DNA of 64,000 bases from Halorubrum sp. BOL3-1. GTDB lineage: Archaea; Halobacteriota; Halobacteria; Halobacteriales; Haloferacaceae. The DNA lies in assembly GCF_004114375.1 (NCBI RefSeq), contig NZ_CP034692.1, positions 1,054,001 through 1,118,000 of the forward strand. Direction: 5' to 3'. Positions within the stretch are counted from its first letter, which is position 1. Every line of letters begins with the position of its first letter. Under the pieces are notes generated by a model. That model was not told where the DNA came from, searched no databases, and saw only the letters and a program-made list of their open reading frames with translations. Shown piece after piece: positions 18,833 through 25,033 of the stretch. The position numbers and the translations under genes were made by a program.

Positions 18833-18922
18833 GGGCACCCGGGTTCGGGTTCCGGTGAGCGGTCGGAGGAGGGTCTGCCCGGAAGCGAAGTTGTTTTCGC
18901 CGGTGGGGCGCAAGTGTGAGGC

Positions 18923-19339
18923 ATGGACAGCGGCGGATCCACCGACATGACGCTGGCGTTCGAGTTGGAGGCGCTGAAAGCGCTCGCGGACCCCAACGCG
19001 GTGTTCAACAACGCCCGACAGTGGACCGAGTACGTCGGCGTCGTCAGCGAGAAGCCGACATACGTCGTCACGAACTTCACGCGGAAACACCGCGTGCGAC
19101 AGGACTTCTTTTCCGGTCCGCGCGGCGTCGAGGAGAGCTTGGAGAACATCAGCCAGCAGTTCGATACGGATCGACACGTCTTCGTCGGGGTCGACGACGA
19201 GGACGAGACCGTCGCCGAGGCGACCAGCTGGGAGTTCCTCCAAGTCGGAAACGCGGCCGAGGCCGCCGGATGGACGCTCGCGACCGGCGAGAGCGCGGAC
19301 GAGGCGCCCGAAGAGCAGGCCCGCGACGACTGGCCCTGA
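18923..19339 (+). CDS. Haloarchaeal conserved protein, paralogue of the gene at 5598
   Basis: 138-residue acidic protein. Same conserved order as the protein at 5598-6080: MTLAFELEALKALADPNAVFNNARQWTEYVGVV, HVFVGVDDEDETVA, WEFLQVGNAAEAAGW. It differs in the middle (FTRKHRVRQDFFSGPRGVEESLENI) and lacks the Arg-rich tail. The convergence of a short N-terminal motif, an internal [HY]VFVG strand and the terminal EAAGW suggests a conserved fold. Function unknown. Confidence 0.8.
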   Translation: MDSGGSTDMTLAFELEALKALADPNAVFNNARQWTEYVGVVSEKPTYVVTNFTRKHRVRQDFFSGPRGVEESLENISQQFDTDRHVFVGVDDEDETVAEATSWEFLQVGNAAEAAGWTLATGESADEAPEEQARDDWP

Positions 19340-19410
19340 GCCGACCGCGACCGGGGGTCGGCTCGGCTTCCGACGCGAGGTGTTTTGCCCGCGGCGACGA
19401 ATCGCGTGAC

Positions 19411-20169
19411 ATGACGAGTCACGACGACGGCCACGGGGACGACAAAGGACATGACCACCACGGTCGCGACCACGGGGACGACGAAGGACATGACCACCAC
19501 GGGGACGACGACGGCCACGACCACCACGGTCACGACCATGGGGACGACGACGGCCACGACCACCACGGTCACGACCATGGGGACGACGACGGCCACGACC
19601 ACCACGGTCACGACGTCGACTCGGTCGCGGTCGCGGTCGTTACGGTCTCCTCGTCGCGCTCCGCGGACGAGGACCCCGCGGGCGACTACGTCGCGGCCGC
19701 CTTCGAGACGGCGGGTCACGAGGTTGCCGTCCGCGAGCTGATCGGAGACGACTACGACAGCGTTCAGGGGACCGTCGACAGACTGGCTCGCCGGGAGGAC
19801 ACGGACGCGGTTGTGACCACCGGCGGCACGGGCGTCACGCCGGACGACGTCACGCCGGAGGCGGTCCGCGGCCTGCTCGCGAAGCGCCTGCCGGGGTTCG
19901 GTGAGCTGTTCCGCCGGCTCTCCTACGAAGAGATCGGTACCCGCACCATCGGCTCGCGCGCGACCGCCGGGGTCGTCTCCGCGACCCCGGTGTTCTGTCT
20001 CCCCGGCTCCGAGAACGCGGTCCGGCTCGGCGTCGACGAGGTGATCCTCCCGGAGATCGGTCACCTCGTCGGACTCGCCGGGCGCGGACTCGACGAGGAG
20101 GAGAGCGGGGGAAGCGAGGAGGGTGAGACGGCGGAGGGCAGCGAAACGGCAGAGAGCGGCGACGCCTGA
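19411..20169 (+). CDS. MoaB/Mog-type molybdopterin biosynthesis protein with His-rich leader
   Basis: 252-residue protein in two parts. Residues 1-68 hold 23 histidines in Gly/Asp/His repeats; residues 31-69 are three near-identical units GDDDGHDHHGHDH. The rest is a MoaB/Mog fold: SVAVAVVTVSSSR, DAVVTTGGTGVTPDDVTPEAV (GGTG adenylation loop), ELFRRLSYEEIGTRTIGSRATAGVV, and CLPGSENAVRLGVDEVILPEIGHLVGLA. Such enzymes adenylate molybdopterin before metal insertion. The His-rich leader could store or deliver metal (inference). No other Mo genes are adjacent. Confidence 0.85.
   Translation: MTSHDDGHGDDKGHDHHGRDHGDDEGHDHHGDDDGHDHHGHDHGDDDGHDHHGHDHGDDDGHDHHGHDVDSVAVAVVTVSSSRSADEDPAGDYVAAAFETAGHEVAVRELIGDDYDSVQGTVDRLARREDTDAVVTTGGTGVTPDDVTPEAVRGLLAKRLPGFGELFRRLSYEEIGTRTIGSRATAGVVSATPVFCLPGSENAVRLGVDEVILPEIGHLVGLAGRGLDEEESGGSEEGETAEGSETAESGDA
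19501..19617 (+). repeat. In-frame 39-bp tandem repeat (x3) in the MoaB-like gene
   Basis: Three near-perfect 39-base units encode GDDDGHDHHGHDH (residues 31-69). Diverged partial units precede them from 19411. Length may vary between strains by slippage. Confidence 0.8.
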
Positions 20170-20181
20170 CGCGCCGGCAGC

Positions 20182-20775
20182 TCAGACGGCGGTGAGGAAG
20201 TTCCGGACGAGGTCGTGGCCCGACGCGGTCAACACGCTCTCCGGGTGGAACTGGACCGCCTCGATCGGGTGGTTCCGGTGACGGATCCCCATCACGATCG
20301 GCTCGCCGTCGTGGTCCGTGGTAGCAGTGACCTCGAACGCGTCCGGCACCTCGGTCGCCGCCAGCGAGTGGTAGCGGCCTGCCCGGAACCCCTGATCGAG
20401 TCCGCGGAACACGCCCTCGCCGTCGTGCTCGACGGCGAACGCCTTCCCGTGGACCGGTTCGGGGGCGTGCCCCACCGTCCCGCCGTACTCGTGGACGGCC
20501 GCCTCCAGCCCGAGGCAGACGCCGAGCGTCGGCACCCGGCGGGAGAGGTCGCGCAACACCGGCATCGTCACGCCGACGTCGCGGTCGTTCCTCGGGTGTC
20601 CCGGGCCCGGGCTGACGATCACCGCGTCCGGGTCCGCCGACTCGATCTGGTCGAGCGACGCGGTGTTTTTGAACACCTCGACGGCGACCGGCTCGCCGTC
20701 GATCCGCTGGTCGGAGACGTACTCGACGAGGTTGTAGGTGAACGAGTCGAAGTTGTCGACGACGACGACCCTCAT
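20182..20775 (-). CDS. trpG: Anthranilate synthase component II (glutamine amidotransferase)
   Basis: Supplies ammonia from glutamine to TrpE for tryptophan synthesis. 197 residues, the family norm. Seen: VVVDNFDSFTYNLVEY at the N terminus, VSPGPGHP oxyanion region, nucleophile Cys87 in LGVCLGLEA, and the C-terminal QFHPES with catalytic His and Glu. The usual 'CLGHQ' reads CLGLE. Its ATG (20775) overlaps the trpE stop as ATGA. Last gene of trpDFEG; it converges on the MoaB-like gene, 12 bases away. Confidence 0.96.
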   Translation of the reverse strand: MRVVVVDNFDSFTYNLVEYVSDQRIDGEPVAVEVFKNTASLDQIESADPDAVIVSPGPGHPRNDRDVGVTMPVLRDLSRRVPTLGVCLGLEAAVHEYGGTVGHAPEPVHGKAFAVEHDGEGVFRGLDQGFRAGRYHSLAATEVPDAFEVTATTDHDGEPIVMGIRHRNHPIEAVQFHPESVLTASGHDLVRNFLTAV

Positions 20776-22475
20776 CGGTCCGCCTCCGAGCCGGTGGCGA
20801 GCGGGTCGGGCGCGTCGCTGTCGGTCGCGTCCCCCTCGCTCGCTCCGTCCTCGCGGATCCGATCGATCGCGGCCAACACGCCGTCCATCTTCTGTTCGGT
20901 CTCCTCGTACTCGGCGGCCGGGTCGGAGTCCGCGACGAGACCGGCACCGGCCCGCACGCCGATGACGGTCTCCTCGACCGACTCGTCGAGCGTCGCGGTC
21001 CGGATCACGATCGCGAAGTCGGCGTCGCCGGTCCACGAGTAGTAGCCGACGCCCCCGCCGTACGCCTCCCGCGGCGTCGACTCGAGGTCGTCGATGATCT
21101 CCATCGCGCGTACCTTCGGCGCGCCGGTGAGCGTCCCCGCGGGGAACGTCGCGCGCGTCGCGTCGAACGCGTCGGCGTCGCCGGCGAGCGTCCCCGTGAC
21201 GGTCGACTCGATGTGCTGGACGTGGCTGTACTTCAGGACGTTCATGAACTCCTCGACGCGGACTGAACCCGGCTCGGAGACGCGGCGGACGTCGTTGCGC
21301 GCGAGGTCGACGAGCATCGTGTGCTCGGCGCGCTCCTTCGCGTCCGCGAGCATCTCGCCCGCGAGTCGCCGGTCCTCGACGGGGCTGGTCCCGCGCGGAC
21401 AGGTGCCCGCGATGGGGTTCGAGACGATCCGGTCGCCTTTCACCGACACGAGCGTCTCCGGGCTGGCGCCGACGACGGTCCGGTCGTCGTGGCGCAGGAC
21501 GTACATGTACGGCGAGGGGTTCACGTCGCGCAGCGCCGCGTACAGTCCGAGCGAGTCGGCCTCGCCGCGCAGTTCGCGGCTCCGCGAGACCACGCCCTGG
21601 TAGATGTCCCCGTCGAGGACGTGGCGCTTCGCGGTTCGAACTGCCTCCTCGTACTCCTCGCGGGGGTCCGCGCTCTCCTCTCGCACCCGGACGCCGTCCG
21701 GGTCCGGCGACCCCGCCTCGCGCAGGGCAGTCGCGACCCGATCCGCCTCTGCGAGCAGGTCGTCGTACACCGCCGCGGGGTCGTCGTCGACGCCGATCAC
21801 CGGCGTGAACACGAGTTCGACGCTGCCCTCCTTCTCGTCGAAGACGACGGTCCGGGTCGTGAGCGCGAACTCGGCGTCCGGGAACTCTGTCTCCGGGCGC
21901 TCGACGCCGACCTCCTCCAACCAGAGGTCGTAGACGGCCTCGTACGCCAGGAACCCGACGAATCCGCCCGAGAGGATCTGCCGGTCGGTGTCGGGGAACC
22001 CGCGCAGGCTCACGTCCGGGAAGGCGGCCCGGACGCGGTCGACGGCGTCGCCGGCGTCGGGACCGAGGTCGCCGCCCCGCTCCGCCCCGGCGTCCGCGTC
22101 GCCGACGAACTCGGCGGCCGGGCCGAGTTCGGTCACCTCGGTGCGGTCCGGGTGGACCGAGACGATCGCCTCGGGATCGTAGCCGACGAACGAGTAGCGG
22201 GCGTGTCTGTCGGCCTTCCCGCCCGACGTGAACGCGCCGTCGGGGTCGCTGGAGGCGACCTTCTCGCCGGACTCTAAGAGGAACCCGTACGGCCCCTCAC
22301 CGACCAGGGTCGCGTACGCCGCGATCGGGGTGACGTCGGCGTCGAGCGACGTCGACGCCCGGACCACGGTCGGCTTCTCGGCGTCCGCGGCGAGGGCGAC
22401 GAACTCGGCCTTCGAGCGGTCGAGCGAGGAGGGGGAGGACGCCTCACGGCCGTCGGACACCGTACCGTCGCTCAT
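20772..22475 (-). CDS. trpE: Anthranilate synthase component I
   Basis: Chorismate-to-anthranilate synthase, 567 residues. Seen: N-terminal LLESGEK...RYSFVGYDP (region that binds tryptophan in feedback inhibition), and the chorismate-binding half with GDIYQGVVSRSRELRG, PSPYMYVLR, ETLV, SNPIAGTCPRG, EHTMLVDLARNDVRRV, VQHIESTVTG, FPAGTLTGAPKVRAMEIID, and GGGVGYYSWTGDADFAIVIRT. All family-critical blocks are present. Overlaps trpF upstream and trpG downstream by ATGA junctions. Start ATG 22475; open frame beyond it is shadow. Confidence 0.97.
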   Translation of the reverse strand: MSDGTVSDGREASSPSSLDRSKAEFVALAADAEKPTVVRASTSLDADVTPIAAYATLVGEGPYGFLLESGEKVASSDPDGAFTSGGKADRHARYSFVGYDPEAIVSVHPDRTEVTELGPAAEFVGDADAGAERGGDLGPDAGDAVDRVRAAFPDVSLRGFPDTDRQILSGGFVGFLAYEAVYDLWLEEVGVERPETEFPDAEFALTTRTVVFDEKEGSVELVFTPVIGVDDDPAAVYDDLLAEADRVATALREAGSPDPDGVRVREESADPREEYEEAVRTAKRHVLDGDIYQGVVSRSRELRGEADSLGLYAALRDVNPSPYMYVLRHDDRTVVGASPETLVSVKGDRIVSNPIAGTCPRGTSPVEDRRLAGEMLADAKERAEHTMLVDLARNDVRRVSEPGSVRVEEFMNVLKYSHVQHIESTVTGTLAGDADAFDATRATFPAGTLTGAPKVRAMEIIDDLESTPREAYGGGVGYYSWTGDADFAIVIRTATLDESVEETVIGVRAGAGLVADSDPAAEYEETEQKMDGVLAAIDRIREDGASEGDATDSDAPDPLATGSEADR

Positions 22476-23116
22476 GCCAGCTCCATCTCCCGGCCCGCGT
22501 TGGCGACGAAGCGAGCCACCGCGTTGTGGTCCTTCCGCCCGTCCTCGATCTCGACGCCCGAGGCGACGTCGACCGCGAAGGGGTCGGCGACGCGCACCGC
22601 CTCCGCGACCGTGTCGGGCGTGAGTCCGCCGGCCAGCACGACGGGCGTGGTAAGCCGGGCGGCGAGCTCGCCGGTCGCCTGCCAGTCGTGGGTCTCGCCC
22701 GTGCCGCCCGCGCCCGAGTCGTCCGTGGAGTCGACGACGAACGCGTCGACCGCGCCGTCGAGCTCCTCGGCGCGACCCGGCTCGTCGGCGTCGACCGCGA
22801 GCAGCACGCTCCGCCCCGTCTCCGCGCGGACGTAGCGCAGCTCCTCGGCGGTCCACTCGCCGTGGAGCTGGACCGCGTCGGGGGCGACCGTCCGGGCCAG
22901 CTCGACCGCGCGCTCAGCGGATTCGGGCATCGCCACGAGCGTCGCGGTGACGAACGGCGGGACGTCCGCGAGCAGCTCGGCGGCCTTCGCCGGGTCGACC
23001 TGGCGCGGCGAGTCGACCGGCACCTCGGTGATCACGCCCACCGCGTCGGCGCCCGCCTCAACCGCGGCGCGGAGGTCGGCCGCTTCGGTGATCCCGCAGA
23101 TCTTCACGCGCGCCAT
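22472..23116 (-). CDS. trpF: Phosphoribosylanthranilate isomerase
   Basis: TIM-barrel isomerase of tryptophan synthesis, 214 residues. Seen: VKICGIT at the N terminus with catalytic Cys, PDAVQLHG, the VDSTDDS region, PVVLAGGLTPDTVAEAV and C-terminal FAVDVASGVE, all family hallmarks. Start ATG 23116 shares a base with the trpD stop, and its own stop overlaps the trpE start. Confidence 0.95.
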   Translation of the reverse strand: MARVKICGITEAADLRAAVEAGADAVGVITEVPVDSPRQVDPAKAAELLADVPPFVTATLVAMPESAERAVELARTVAPDAVQLHGEWTAEELRYVRAETGRSVLLAVDADEPGRAEELDGAVDAFVVDSTDDSGAGGTGETHDWQATGELAARLTTPVVLAGGLTPDTVAEAVRVADPFAVDVASGVEIEDGRKDHNAVARFVANAGREMELA

Positions 23117-24201
23117 CAGTCGCCGTCCTCCGCGGCGTCGCCGCCGGCGCTCGCCGCCGCTTCTCCCTCCGCTCGCGCCTCCGAACCGGGGTCGTCGCCG
23201 CACAGCGCCGCGAACTTCTCCGCCGCCGCGCCGGAGTCGATCGCCTCCGCGGCGCGCTCGACGCCCGCCGCGAGCGAATCGGTCTCGCCGGCGACGTAGA
23301 CGGCGGCGCCCGCGTTCGCCAAGACCAGGTCGCGTTTCGGGCCGGTGACGGAGCCGTCGACGATCCCTCGAAGGTCCGTCGCGTTCTCCTCGGGCGATCC
23401 CCCCGCGACGGCTTCGATCGGGGCGCGGCCGAGACCGAGGTCCTCCGGCGTGATCGTGAACTCAGTGACCTCGTCGCCGTCGACCTCGGCGGCGACGGTG
23501 TCGTCGTGGATCCCGATCTCGTCCATTCCCGCGCCGTGGACGACGAGCGCGCGTTCGACGGGCATGTGCGCGAGCGACCGCGCGATGACCGGCACGAGGT
23601 CGGGGTCGTACACGCCCAGTACCTGCGCGTCGGCGCCGGCGGGGTTCGTCAGCGGCCCGAGGACGTTGAAGATCGTCCGCATTCCCAACTCCTTGCGCGG
23701 GCCGATGACCGCCTTCATCGCCGGGTGGAAGACCGGCGCGAGCATGAAGCCGATCCCGTCGTCCTCGATGGCGTCCTCGACGGCCGGGGGTTCGGCCTCG
23801 ACGTCGGCGCCCGCGACCTCCAGCACGTCGGCGCTGCCCGACGAGGAGGAGACCGAGTAGTTGCCGTGCTTGGCGATCGGCACCCCGGCGCCAGCGGCGA
23901 CGATCGCGGCGGTCGTCGAGACGTTGATCGTGTCGTAGTCGTCGCCGCCCGTGCCGCAGGTGTCGACGAGCGGCTCGCGGTCCGGCTCGATCGTCCGGGC
24001 GGCGTCGCGCATCCCCCGCGCGAACCCGGCGATCTCCGCCTCGGTCTCGCCCTTCGCCCGGAGCGCGGCGAGCAACGCCCCGATCTGGGCCTCCGTCGCC
24101 TCCTCGAAGACGAGCCGCGCGGCCTCGCGCGCCTCCTCGACGGTCAGGTCCGTCCCGTCCGTCACGCGCTCGACCGCGTCGTTGATATTTATTATGTCCA
24201 T
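23116..24201 (-). CDS. trpD: Anthranilate phosphoribosyltransferase
   Basis: Transfers phosphoribose to anthranilate; first gene of trpDFEG, the operon order known from Haloferax. About 361 residues. Seen: VDTCGTGGDDYDTINVSTTAAIVAAGAG, AKHGNYSVSSSSGSADVLE, FMLAPVFHPAMKAV, RTIFNVLGPLTNPA, and a disordered Ala/Asp C-terminal tail. I chose ATG 24201, not 24231: the inferred transcription start lies near 24219, downstream of 24231. Convergence of TATA, palindrome and start makes this the operon promoter. Confidence 0.95.
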   Translation of the reverse strand: MDIININDAVERVTDGTDLTVEEAREAARLVFEEATEAQIGALLAALRAKGETEAEIAGFARGMRDAARTIEPDREPLVDTCGTGGDDYDTINVSTTAAIVAAGAGVPIAKHGNYSVSSSSGSADVLEVAGADVEAEPPAVEDAIEDDGIGFMLAPVFHPAMKAVIGPRKELGMRTIFNVLGPLTNPAGADAQVLGVYDPDLVPVIARSLAHMPVERALVVHGAGMDEIGIHDDTVAAEVDGDEVTEFTITPEDLGLGRAPIEAVAGGSPEENATDLRGIVDGSVTGPKRDLVLANAGAAVYVAGETDSLAAGVERAAEAIDSGAAAEKFAALCGDDPGSEARAEGEAAASAGGDAAEDGD

Positions 24202-24224
24202 CGATGTAGTATTCCGAGTTGTGA

Positions 24225-24249
24225 TGTACAAGTATGTACACTAATTTAA
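24225..24249 (-). promoter_or_regulatory. trp operon promoter with palindromic candidate operator
   Basis: TATA box TTAAATTA (minus strand, 24242-24249) places transcription start near 24219. Between them lie two TGTACA half-sites, each self-complementary, separated by four bases (24225-24240, TGTACAAGTATGTACA). A protein bound here would block the polymerase, so this is a strong candidate tryptophan-responsive operator. Seen: TATA and palindrome; inferred: function. Confidence 0.55.
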
Positions 24250-24325
24250 CGCTGTCGACGGCGCGGGGACTGATCGCACAGGCGAGAAAATCAGGAGACG
24301 AACCCGAGAAGAGACCGTCGGGCCC

Positions 24326-25033
24326 CTACTCCGCGTCGAGCGCGGTCGACCCGTCGCCCTCCACGACGACGACGGGAACCTCGGCGTCGCCGACGACCGT
24401 GTCGGTCGTGGAGCCGAAGACGAACCGGCCGACCGTACCGGTCGTGGGGGCGCCGACGACGACTAGGTCGTAGTAGGGCGACTGCTCGACGACGGCGCCC
24501 GCTGCGGTCCGGTCCTCGACGAGCCACCGGTCGGCGCGGTCGAAGCCGCTGAGCCGCGATTCGGCCGCGTCGAGGAGCCGCTCACCGGCCGTGGCGTAGT
24601 CGGCGTCGTCCGCGTCGCCGGGGGTGTCGGCGTCGGCAGTCGTTCCGTCGTCGTCGCCGGATTCGGCGTCAGCGAGCGCCGCGTCGGAGGGGACGACGTG
24701 GAACAGTTCGAGCCACGCGTCCGTCGCCGCCGCTATCCCCCTCGCGACGTCGACGGTCGCCCCCGAGTGCGGGCCGGGACCGACGGCGACGAGGACCGAC
24801 GAGACGCGGTCGGGGCGCCCCGCGCGGTCGGCGCCGTTCAGCGACACGTCGGCCGCGGTGGCGACCCCGCTCGCGTCCTTCACCGCGGGTCCGATCACGG
24901 GGTCACCGACCGCGAGCGAACCGGCGGCGGCAGAACCGCCGCTCGCGGTCGAGTCGCTCGATCCGCCGCGGGCGCCGCCGTTTCGGGTTCCACCGTTTCG
25001 GGTGCTTCCACCGTCGCCGTCGCTCCCGTTCAT
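24326..25033 (-). CDS. Universal stress protein family
   Basis: 235-residue UspA-like protein. Seen: VLVAVGPGPHSGATVDVARGIAAATDAWLELFHVVP and the ATP-binding stretch VVVGAPTTGTVGRFVFGSTTDTVVGDAEVPVVVV (G-2x-G-9x-G(S/T)). The N-terminal 60 residues are a low-complexity Gly/Ser region, and a 25-residue acidic insertion sits in the middle, features common in haloarchaeal Usp proteins. TTTATC about 25 bases before the ATG supports the start. Role in stress signalling is inferred from family. Confidence 0.8.
   Translation of the reverse strand: MNGSDGDGGSTRNGGTRNGGARGGSSDSTASGGSAAAGSLAVGDPVIGPAVKDASGVATAADVSLNGADRAGRPDRVSSVLVAVGPGPHSGATVDVARGIAAATDAWLELFHVVPSDAALADAESGDDDGTTADADTPGDADDADYATAGERLLDAAESRLSGFDRADRWLVEDRTAAGAVVEQSPYYDLVVVGAPTTGTVGRFVFGSTTDTVVGDAEVPVVVVEGDGSTALDAE

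Follow-up and report, generated by a model that had tools for sequence, protein, structure and literature searches.

The element in front of trpDFEG in Halorubrum sp. BOL3-1 is very probably an array of TRP boxes that serves as the operator of a repressor of the TrpY family, with the candidate regulator encoded outside the window, by which we mean the whole stretch of 64,000 nucleotides that was analyzed (C3:1054001-1118000 of the 3,668,425-base genome). The element, TGTACAAGTATGTACA, occupies positions 24225-24240 on the plus strand and reads TGTACATACTTGTACA on the trp (minus) strand, and its repeated unit is TGTACA, which we take to be the TRP box that TrpY of Methanothermobacter, a repressor dependent on tryptophan, recognizes. 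This assignment, made by sequence comparison, draws on the boxes themselves, their phasing and conservation, an array at trpC, a single TrpY gene, divergent linkage in four genomes and a match between recognition helix and operator.

Architecture of the trpDFEG promoter

The Pfam assignments give the gene order trpD, trpF, trpE and trpG, with a Usp gene upstream. The features of the promoter and operon are listed below, with mean mismatches to TGTACA taken over 72 distinct trpD promoters.

24242-24249, minus strand: TATA box (TTAAATTA) of trpDFEG; the last TTWW begins 8 or 9 bp ahead of box 1 in 72/72 distinct trpD promoters, and the TT columns carry 2.00 bits
24235-24240, minus strand: box 1 (offset 0), TGTACA; mean 0.60 mismatches (background 4.64)
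24225-24230, minus strand: box 2 (offset 10), TGTACA; mean 0.42 mismatches
24215-24220, minus strand: empty slot (offset 20), AACTCG, partly conserved, not box-like, near the expected transcription start; mean 4.29 mismatches, at most 2 in 1/72
24205-24210, minus strand: weak box (offset 30), ACTACA; mean 1.83 mismatches, at most 2 in 61/72
24195-24200, minus strand: weak box (offset 40), TGGACA, over the ATG; mean 2.01 mismatches, at most 2 in 45/72
23116-24201, minus strand: trpD, first gene of the operon (Pfam PF00591 and PF02885)
22472-23116, minus strand: trpF (Pfam PF00697)
20772-22544, minus strand: trpE, start approximate, from a scanned stretch (Pfam PF00425 and PF04715)
20182-20814, minus strand: trpG, start approximate (Pfam PF00117)

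On the trp strand the plausible BRE/TATA element at 24249-24242 is followed by box 1 (24240-24235), box 2 (24230-24225), the expected transcription start at about 24219 and the trpD ATG at 24201-24199; the inferred start would be compatible with the usual archaeal spacing from the TATA box. The placement of TGTACA-AGTA-TGTACA between the TATA box and the inferred start, proposed in the first-pass annotation, is therefore borne out. The same annotation described a palindromic operator with half-sites, and the TGTACA boxes are indeed palindromic. Because TGTACA is its own reverse complement, however, each box is a complete 6-bp palindrome, and the element is a tandem pair of these set 10 bp apart, not a single palindrome made of two half-sites. 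Further boxes follow in the same 10-bp register, so that the array has strong boxes at offsets 0 and 10 and weak boxes at 30 and 40. The weak box at 24210-24205 has 2 mismatches to TGTACA, and that at 24200-24195 has 1 mismatch and overlaps the trpD ATG.

At 24187-24206 many relatives have GGTG and an ATG three codons downstream. Since both are changed in this genome, to GATG and ATA respectively, trpD most likely starts here at a different ATG, the one overlapping the last box.

Exact TGTACA-N4-TGTACA occurs once in the window and once in the whole genome, at 24225-24240 in both cases. With up to 3 mismatches, 7 occurrences were found in the window, compared with a mean of 1.73 and a largest value of 5 in shuffled sequences. 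With up to 2 mismatches the whole genome holds 31 sites per strand, compared with 23 for the reversed control, which argues against a large genomic set of two-box sites.

Two further observations concern neighboring or related genes. The ORF at 18916-20169 on the plus strand encodes a His/Asp-rich tandem repeat (DDDGHDHHGHD...) followed by a domain that looks, by eye, to be of the MoaB type; the repeat is possibly a metal-binding extension. Elsewhere in this genome, three further TrpE-like chorismate-binding enzymes are encoded at G000:C3:2965534-2966637, 1591812-1592693 and 357894-358691.

Conservation of the array at trpD and trpC

The first-pass annotation named orthologous loci as a place to look for the palindrome, and it was present at all of those sampled. 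The sample comprised the best 80 of 196 TrpD relatives from a scan of one-genome-per-species contigs, and covered Halorubrum and many other haloarchaeal genera, with one locus titled uncultured archaeon and two loci from one species. The two-box element lies upstream of trpD in 80/80 loci, with 0, 1, 2 and 3 mismatches of 12 in 42, 9, 21 and 8 promoters, respectively. Control windows of equal size at the same loci reached at most 2 mismatches in 1/4271 cases and at most 3 in 81/4271. When separations from 6 to 35 were scanned, box pairs in these promoters were found solely at 10 (51), 20 (8) and 30 (34).

Over the 72 distinct trpD promoters, the upstream flank (-60 to -31) averages 0.16 bits per column, compared with 1.62 for box 1 and 1.66 for box 2, and both boxes lie downstream of the TATA box in 72/72. 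Conservation extends to the BRE/TATA element and to the GGTG ahead of the start codon. Sliding TGTACA along these promoters gave minima at offsets 0, 10, 30 and 40 against a background of 4.64 (sd 0.29), with one further offset, -18, below 3.3 (at 3.21). The trpD array is thus of a 2+2 type with an empty third slot. The signal at offset 40 may be due in part to the start codon and the Shine-Dalgarno GGTG; for the TACA at offset 30 no comparable explanation is apparent. Outside the 80 loci, the f9 genomes (L205-L207) have trpD boxes at 0, 10 and 20, and an f11 genome (L208) has them at 0 and 20.

The search at trpCBA that the first-pass annotation suggested also gave a related array. We located trpC in 29/31 genomes of the order and could read the upstream region in 28, of which 24 have the outer boxes TGTACA-N14-TGTACA within 3 of 12 mismatches, straight after a putative TATA box and just ahead of the ATG. 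Three of the other four (L096, L100 and L109) carry the array before trpB, recognized by eye from its reading frame, rather than before trpC, and the fourth (L121) has a 4-mismatch array in the equivalent place. In this genome the trpC array reads TGAACA-N4-AGTACA-N4-TGTATA at C3:646800-646825. Over 25 trpC promoters, a set without one truncated locus and the three loci whose array precedes trpB, the slide gave minima at 0, 10, 20 and 30 (0.40, 2.40, 0.68 and 2.12 mean mismatches), with shallow values of 3.2 at -2 and +2. Box pairs at trpC were separated by 10 (2), 20 (19) and 30 (2), with one at 29. The trpC promoters are apparently leaderless, and in f9/f11 boxes stand at trpB as well; the 10-bp steps hold there too.

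A three-box pattern was found in 75/98 genomes in a scan of the order (reversed control, 3/98). Fifteen of these sites were read in context: 7 lie at trp genes (4 trpD, 3 trpC) and 8 elsewhere, the latter comprising two in one gyrB-like coding stretch of two genomes and six single cases. No conserved target beyond trp emerged among the 15 sites read, a scan in which weak sites could be missed. The exact two-box site is present in 50/52 Halorubrum genomes (reversed control, 1/52), and eight such sites from eight genomes were placed at three trpD promoters and before a TFB gene in five cases. This second recurring exact pair, TGTACAACCCTGTACA, is conserved ahead of the TFB TATA box in five Halorubrum genomes (L126-L130) and occurs with one mismatch in this genome (L002:1501-1516, corresponding to G000:C3:741975-741990). 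Since it lies upstream of both the TFB gene and its TATA box, it is probably a signal other than the trp array.

A TrpY-family protein as candidate regulator

The first-pass annotation saw no recognized regulator gene in the window, in agreement with the location of the candidate found here. A genome-wide search for ACT domains identified a 166-residue HTH+ACT protein at G000:C3:2043763-2044263 (L224:1213-1713), outside the window, which matches the NCBIfam family TrpY_fam (NF053754) with 231.6 bits against a cut-off of 180 and is the one match in the genome. Pfam recognizes ACT domains alone in this protein, and its HTH was assigned on the basis of its sequence and of the name of the family. 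The trpY gene is unlinked from the operon: C3:2043763 and the trpD position C3:1078201 are 0.97 Mb apart, so that trpY is neither divergent from nor adjacent to the trp operon here. Residue 149 of haloarchaeal TrpY is Gly, as in 30/30 family members compared (its own sequence included), with Pro preceding it in 26; it coincides with the site of the TrpY G149R mutant. A search of solved structures returned no credible TrpY relative (best E 0.043).

Matches to NF053754 above the cut-off were found in 74/80 genomes of the phylum and 28/31 of the order, including 20/20 order genomes that are at least 90% complete. Among 14 well-known control genomes the family matched 3, of which 2 were over the cut-off, those listed being Lactococcus lactis, Haloferax volcanii and Methanosarcina acetivorans. 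Two small, incomplete genomes, G001 (0.9 Mb, 78% complete) and G018 (1.1 Mb, 70%), retain both TrpY and the trpC array. The regions upstream of haloarchaeal trpY genes (about 160-200 bp) contain a phased box pair in 0/31 cases and any TGTACA in 1/31.

Four f18 genomes (G098, G107, G121 and G127; completeness 61-85%) have a TrpY over the cut-off, and trpE was not found in them, a hint either of gaps in the assemblies or of an additional function of TrpY. On these grounds TrpY may do other work besides trp.

Arrays and recognition helices beyond the haloarchaea

A trpE match is present in 76/80 genomes of the phylum, and 48 non-haloarchaeal trp regions were read. With an array defined as one perfect box and a partner with at most 1 mismatch in 10/20/30 register at the trp cluster promoter, phased arrays were found in 13/48 regions, from families f19, f22, f25, f27, f28 and f29. 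Their positions are given below; genes other than trpE were named by eye.

Before trpD: G099, G116, G144, G081 and G090 (f19)
Before trpC: G105 and G087 (f25)
Before trpE: G129 (f27), G100 (f29), G093 (f22), and G126, G094 and G148 (f28)

In G112, a fourth region of f28, the position of the array is taken by a weaker TGTACG-N4-TATACA; this region is left out of the 13 and belongs to the 16, described below, that combine a DRR-type TrpY with the absence of an array. Over the whole of the 48 regions, box pairs at separations of 10, 20 and 30 numbered 19, 7 and 8, whereas 18 control separations averaged 1.7; in test and control separations alike, two perfect boxes forming a pair were counted twice. 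In six regions (G080, G081, G084, G102, G103 and G144) a phased pair lies elsewhere than at the trp promoter, and such pairs therefore also arise by chance in A+T-rich DNA.

The array is accompanied by a particular recognition helix. Two of the 13 array regions were left out of the helix count, G100 (not parsed) and G148 (no TrpY over the cut-off); the sequence DRR(V/I)(V/I)(D/N) was found in 11/11 array-bearing non-haloarchaeal genomes with the helix read, and the haloarchaeal helices read are of the DRR type too. In regions with a DR(K/N)VV helix, ten from f21 (which we guess to be Archaeoglobaceae) and five from f24, the phased TGTACA pair was found in 0/15; f21 and f24 may share one origin, so these are not to be taken as 15 independent cases and may represent a single evolutionary event. 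The converse fails, as 16/48 regions with a DRR-type TrpY have no array near trpE by the criterion used; the operon promoter in those regions may lie elsewhere than near trpE. The remaining four of the 48 are two f26 regions and one f32 region without a TrpY over the cut-off and one f30 region whose helix was not read.

In four f24 genomes (G113, G104, G120 and G086; L261-L264) trpY is divergent from the trp operon. These operons begin with trpC and trpD, named by eye, and were read to trpB in G113 and G104 and to trpA in G086, the G120 contig ending within trpE. The divergent f24 loci have no phased TGTACA, and their TrpY has the other recognition helix. No convincing shared alternative box was seen by eye in the f24 intergenic regions.

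We hold tentatively, as a plausible extension, that the whole phylum inherited its tryptophan switch from an ancestral TrpY acting on phased TRP-box arrays, and kept it even in small genomes and after separation of trpY from the operon; that helix and operator changed in concert on one occasion, so that in f21/f24 the DR(K/N) helix reads a different operator; and that the trpD array is of a 2+2 type (0, 10 | 30, 40) with the second pair over the leader and start codon.

Proposed mechanism and alternatives

In the proposed mechanism, TrpY, with an N-terminal HTH and a C-terminal amino-acid-binding ACT domain, would bind the TGTACA boxes downstream of the TATA box, each of them a palindrome in itself, and the exact 10-bp steps would place neighboring TrpY units on one face of the helix. 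Tryptophan bound through the ACT domain would promote a multi-TrpY complex over boxes 1 and 2, and probably also over the weaker boxes at 30 and 40, covering the DNA from the TATA box to the transcription start, so that trpDFEG could not be initiated. With a similar array at trpC, the two separated trp operons would form one regulon. TrpY binding, its dependence on tryptophan, a repressing and not an activating effect, and cooperativity in assembly are the parts of this scheme that we infer.

At both operons the boxes lie downstream of the TATA box and at or before the expected start, while the weak outer boxes extend past it. A protein bound there would accordingly be expected to impede RNA polymerase or the pre-initiation complex. 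The spacing of one box to each helical turn favors side-by-side assembly of TrpY, and each promoter has several boxes, at 0, 10, (30, 40) for trpD and 0, 10, 20, (30) for trpC, leaving room for a multi-TrpY complex. In 2008 Karr and colleagues reportedly found that insertions within the regulatory region prevented formation of the inhibitory complex at trpB2. The ACT domain and the analogy with Methanothermobacter TrpY suggest tryptophan as the signal.

The boxes could instead be the operator of another helix-turn-helix regulator, an Lrp/AsnC-type protein, a DUF7839 HTH protein or an MGMT-like protein, which we consider improbable. A DUF7839 HTH gene does lie about 100 bp upstream of trpD in G025 (L207:1289-2119), but in this one genome only, and an MGMT/ATL-like gene is divergent from trpC at L119:2405-2869 (Pfam PF01035) and, by eye, in L097, L098 and L211. 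In place of the PCHR of the active enzyme, the MGMT-like protein has PDHR or PSHR, and by eye it has lost the Arg finger, which makes DNA reading by it doubtful. Neither this protein nor the DUF7839 protein is known to be linked to TGTACA, whereas TGTACA is the TRP box and TrpY is found in every one of the 20 nearly complete haloarchaeal genomes. Both genes were set aside as regulators.

A role of these boxes and TrpY in activation or in start-site selection, in place of repression, is more improbable still. Position by itself is no proof of sign, and in Thermococcus a different regulator, Tar, activates trp (PMC6737238). The Tar palindrome, however, lies upstream of BRE/TATA, whereas boxes 1 and 2 here are downstream of TATA in all 72 distinct promoters, a repressor-like position, and Methanothermobacter TrpY is described as a repressor in that source. 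Conservation of a core promoter or leader (an initiator, Shine-Dalgarno or RNA element) with no regulator would fit the conserved BRE/TATA and GGTG, but is very unlikely, as the boxes recur in 10-bp steps at promoters with other leaders (trpC, and trpB in f9/f11), boxes 1 and 2 lie upstream of the expected start and an Rfam scan of the promoter (23900-24600) gave no match at E up to 1.

Comparison with known systems

The preferred reading, a TrpY-bound TRP-box array, is of a known kind; as far as the search shows, TRP boxes in haloarchaea are new to print, a limited claim, no report of them having appeared among the matches listed in a literature search that covered few subscription papers. 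The operators yield a concrete prediction, with two operons, exact boxes and one gene, that is testable in Haloferax volcanii, where NF053754 has a match. The strict 10-bp register and the covariation of helix and operator also allow operator reading by a small HTH-ACT protein to be studied across a phylum.

Bacterial TrpR is likewise a tryptophan-dependent repressor whose operator overlaps the promoter, a property shared with the system proposed here, but it has a protein fold unrelated to that of TrpY and a different operator. The TrpY/TRP-box system of Methanothermobacter thermautotrophicus is known from the work of Xie and Reeve in 2005 and Karr et al. in 2008. The haloarchaeal system resembles it in protein family, by NCBIfam name, and in having several TGTACA boxes per trp promoter, and by analogy tryptophan-dependent repression would be expected here. 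It differs in that trpY is unlinked and two separate trp operons carry arrays, and may differ in the exact 10-bp register of its boxes. Unlike the autoregulated Methanothermobacter trpY, haloarchaeal trpY genes have promoters without phased boxes (0/31). In Methanothermobacter, according to PMC6737238, TRP boxes lie in the overlapping promoters of trpY and trpE, and the divergent trpY-trp order of the f24 genomes is the arrangement described there. We regard adjacency of trpY and trp as characteristic of the type locus and not of the family at large. The same 2019 source treats haloarchaeal TrpY homologs as unexamined, with a function that could not be estimated, and states that TkTrpY of Thermococcus kodakarensis does not control its own trp operon. 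It further describes Tar (TK0271) of T. kodakarensis, which resembles the proposed system in placing a palindrome at archaeal trp promoters for aromatic amino acid control. Tar differs in recognizing TGGACA-N8-TGTCCA upstream of BRE/TATA, in acting as an activator and in also serving the tyr-phe and aro operons, whereas the boxes at trpD have 4-bp spacers and lie downstream of the TATA box.
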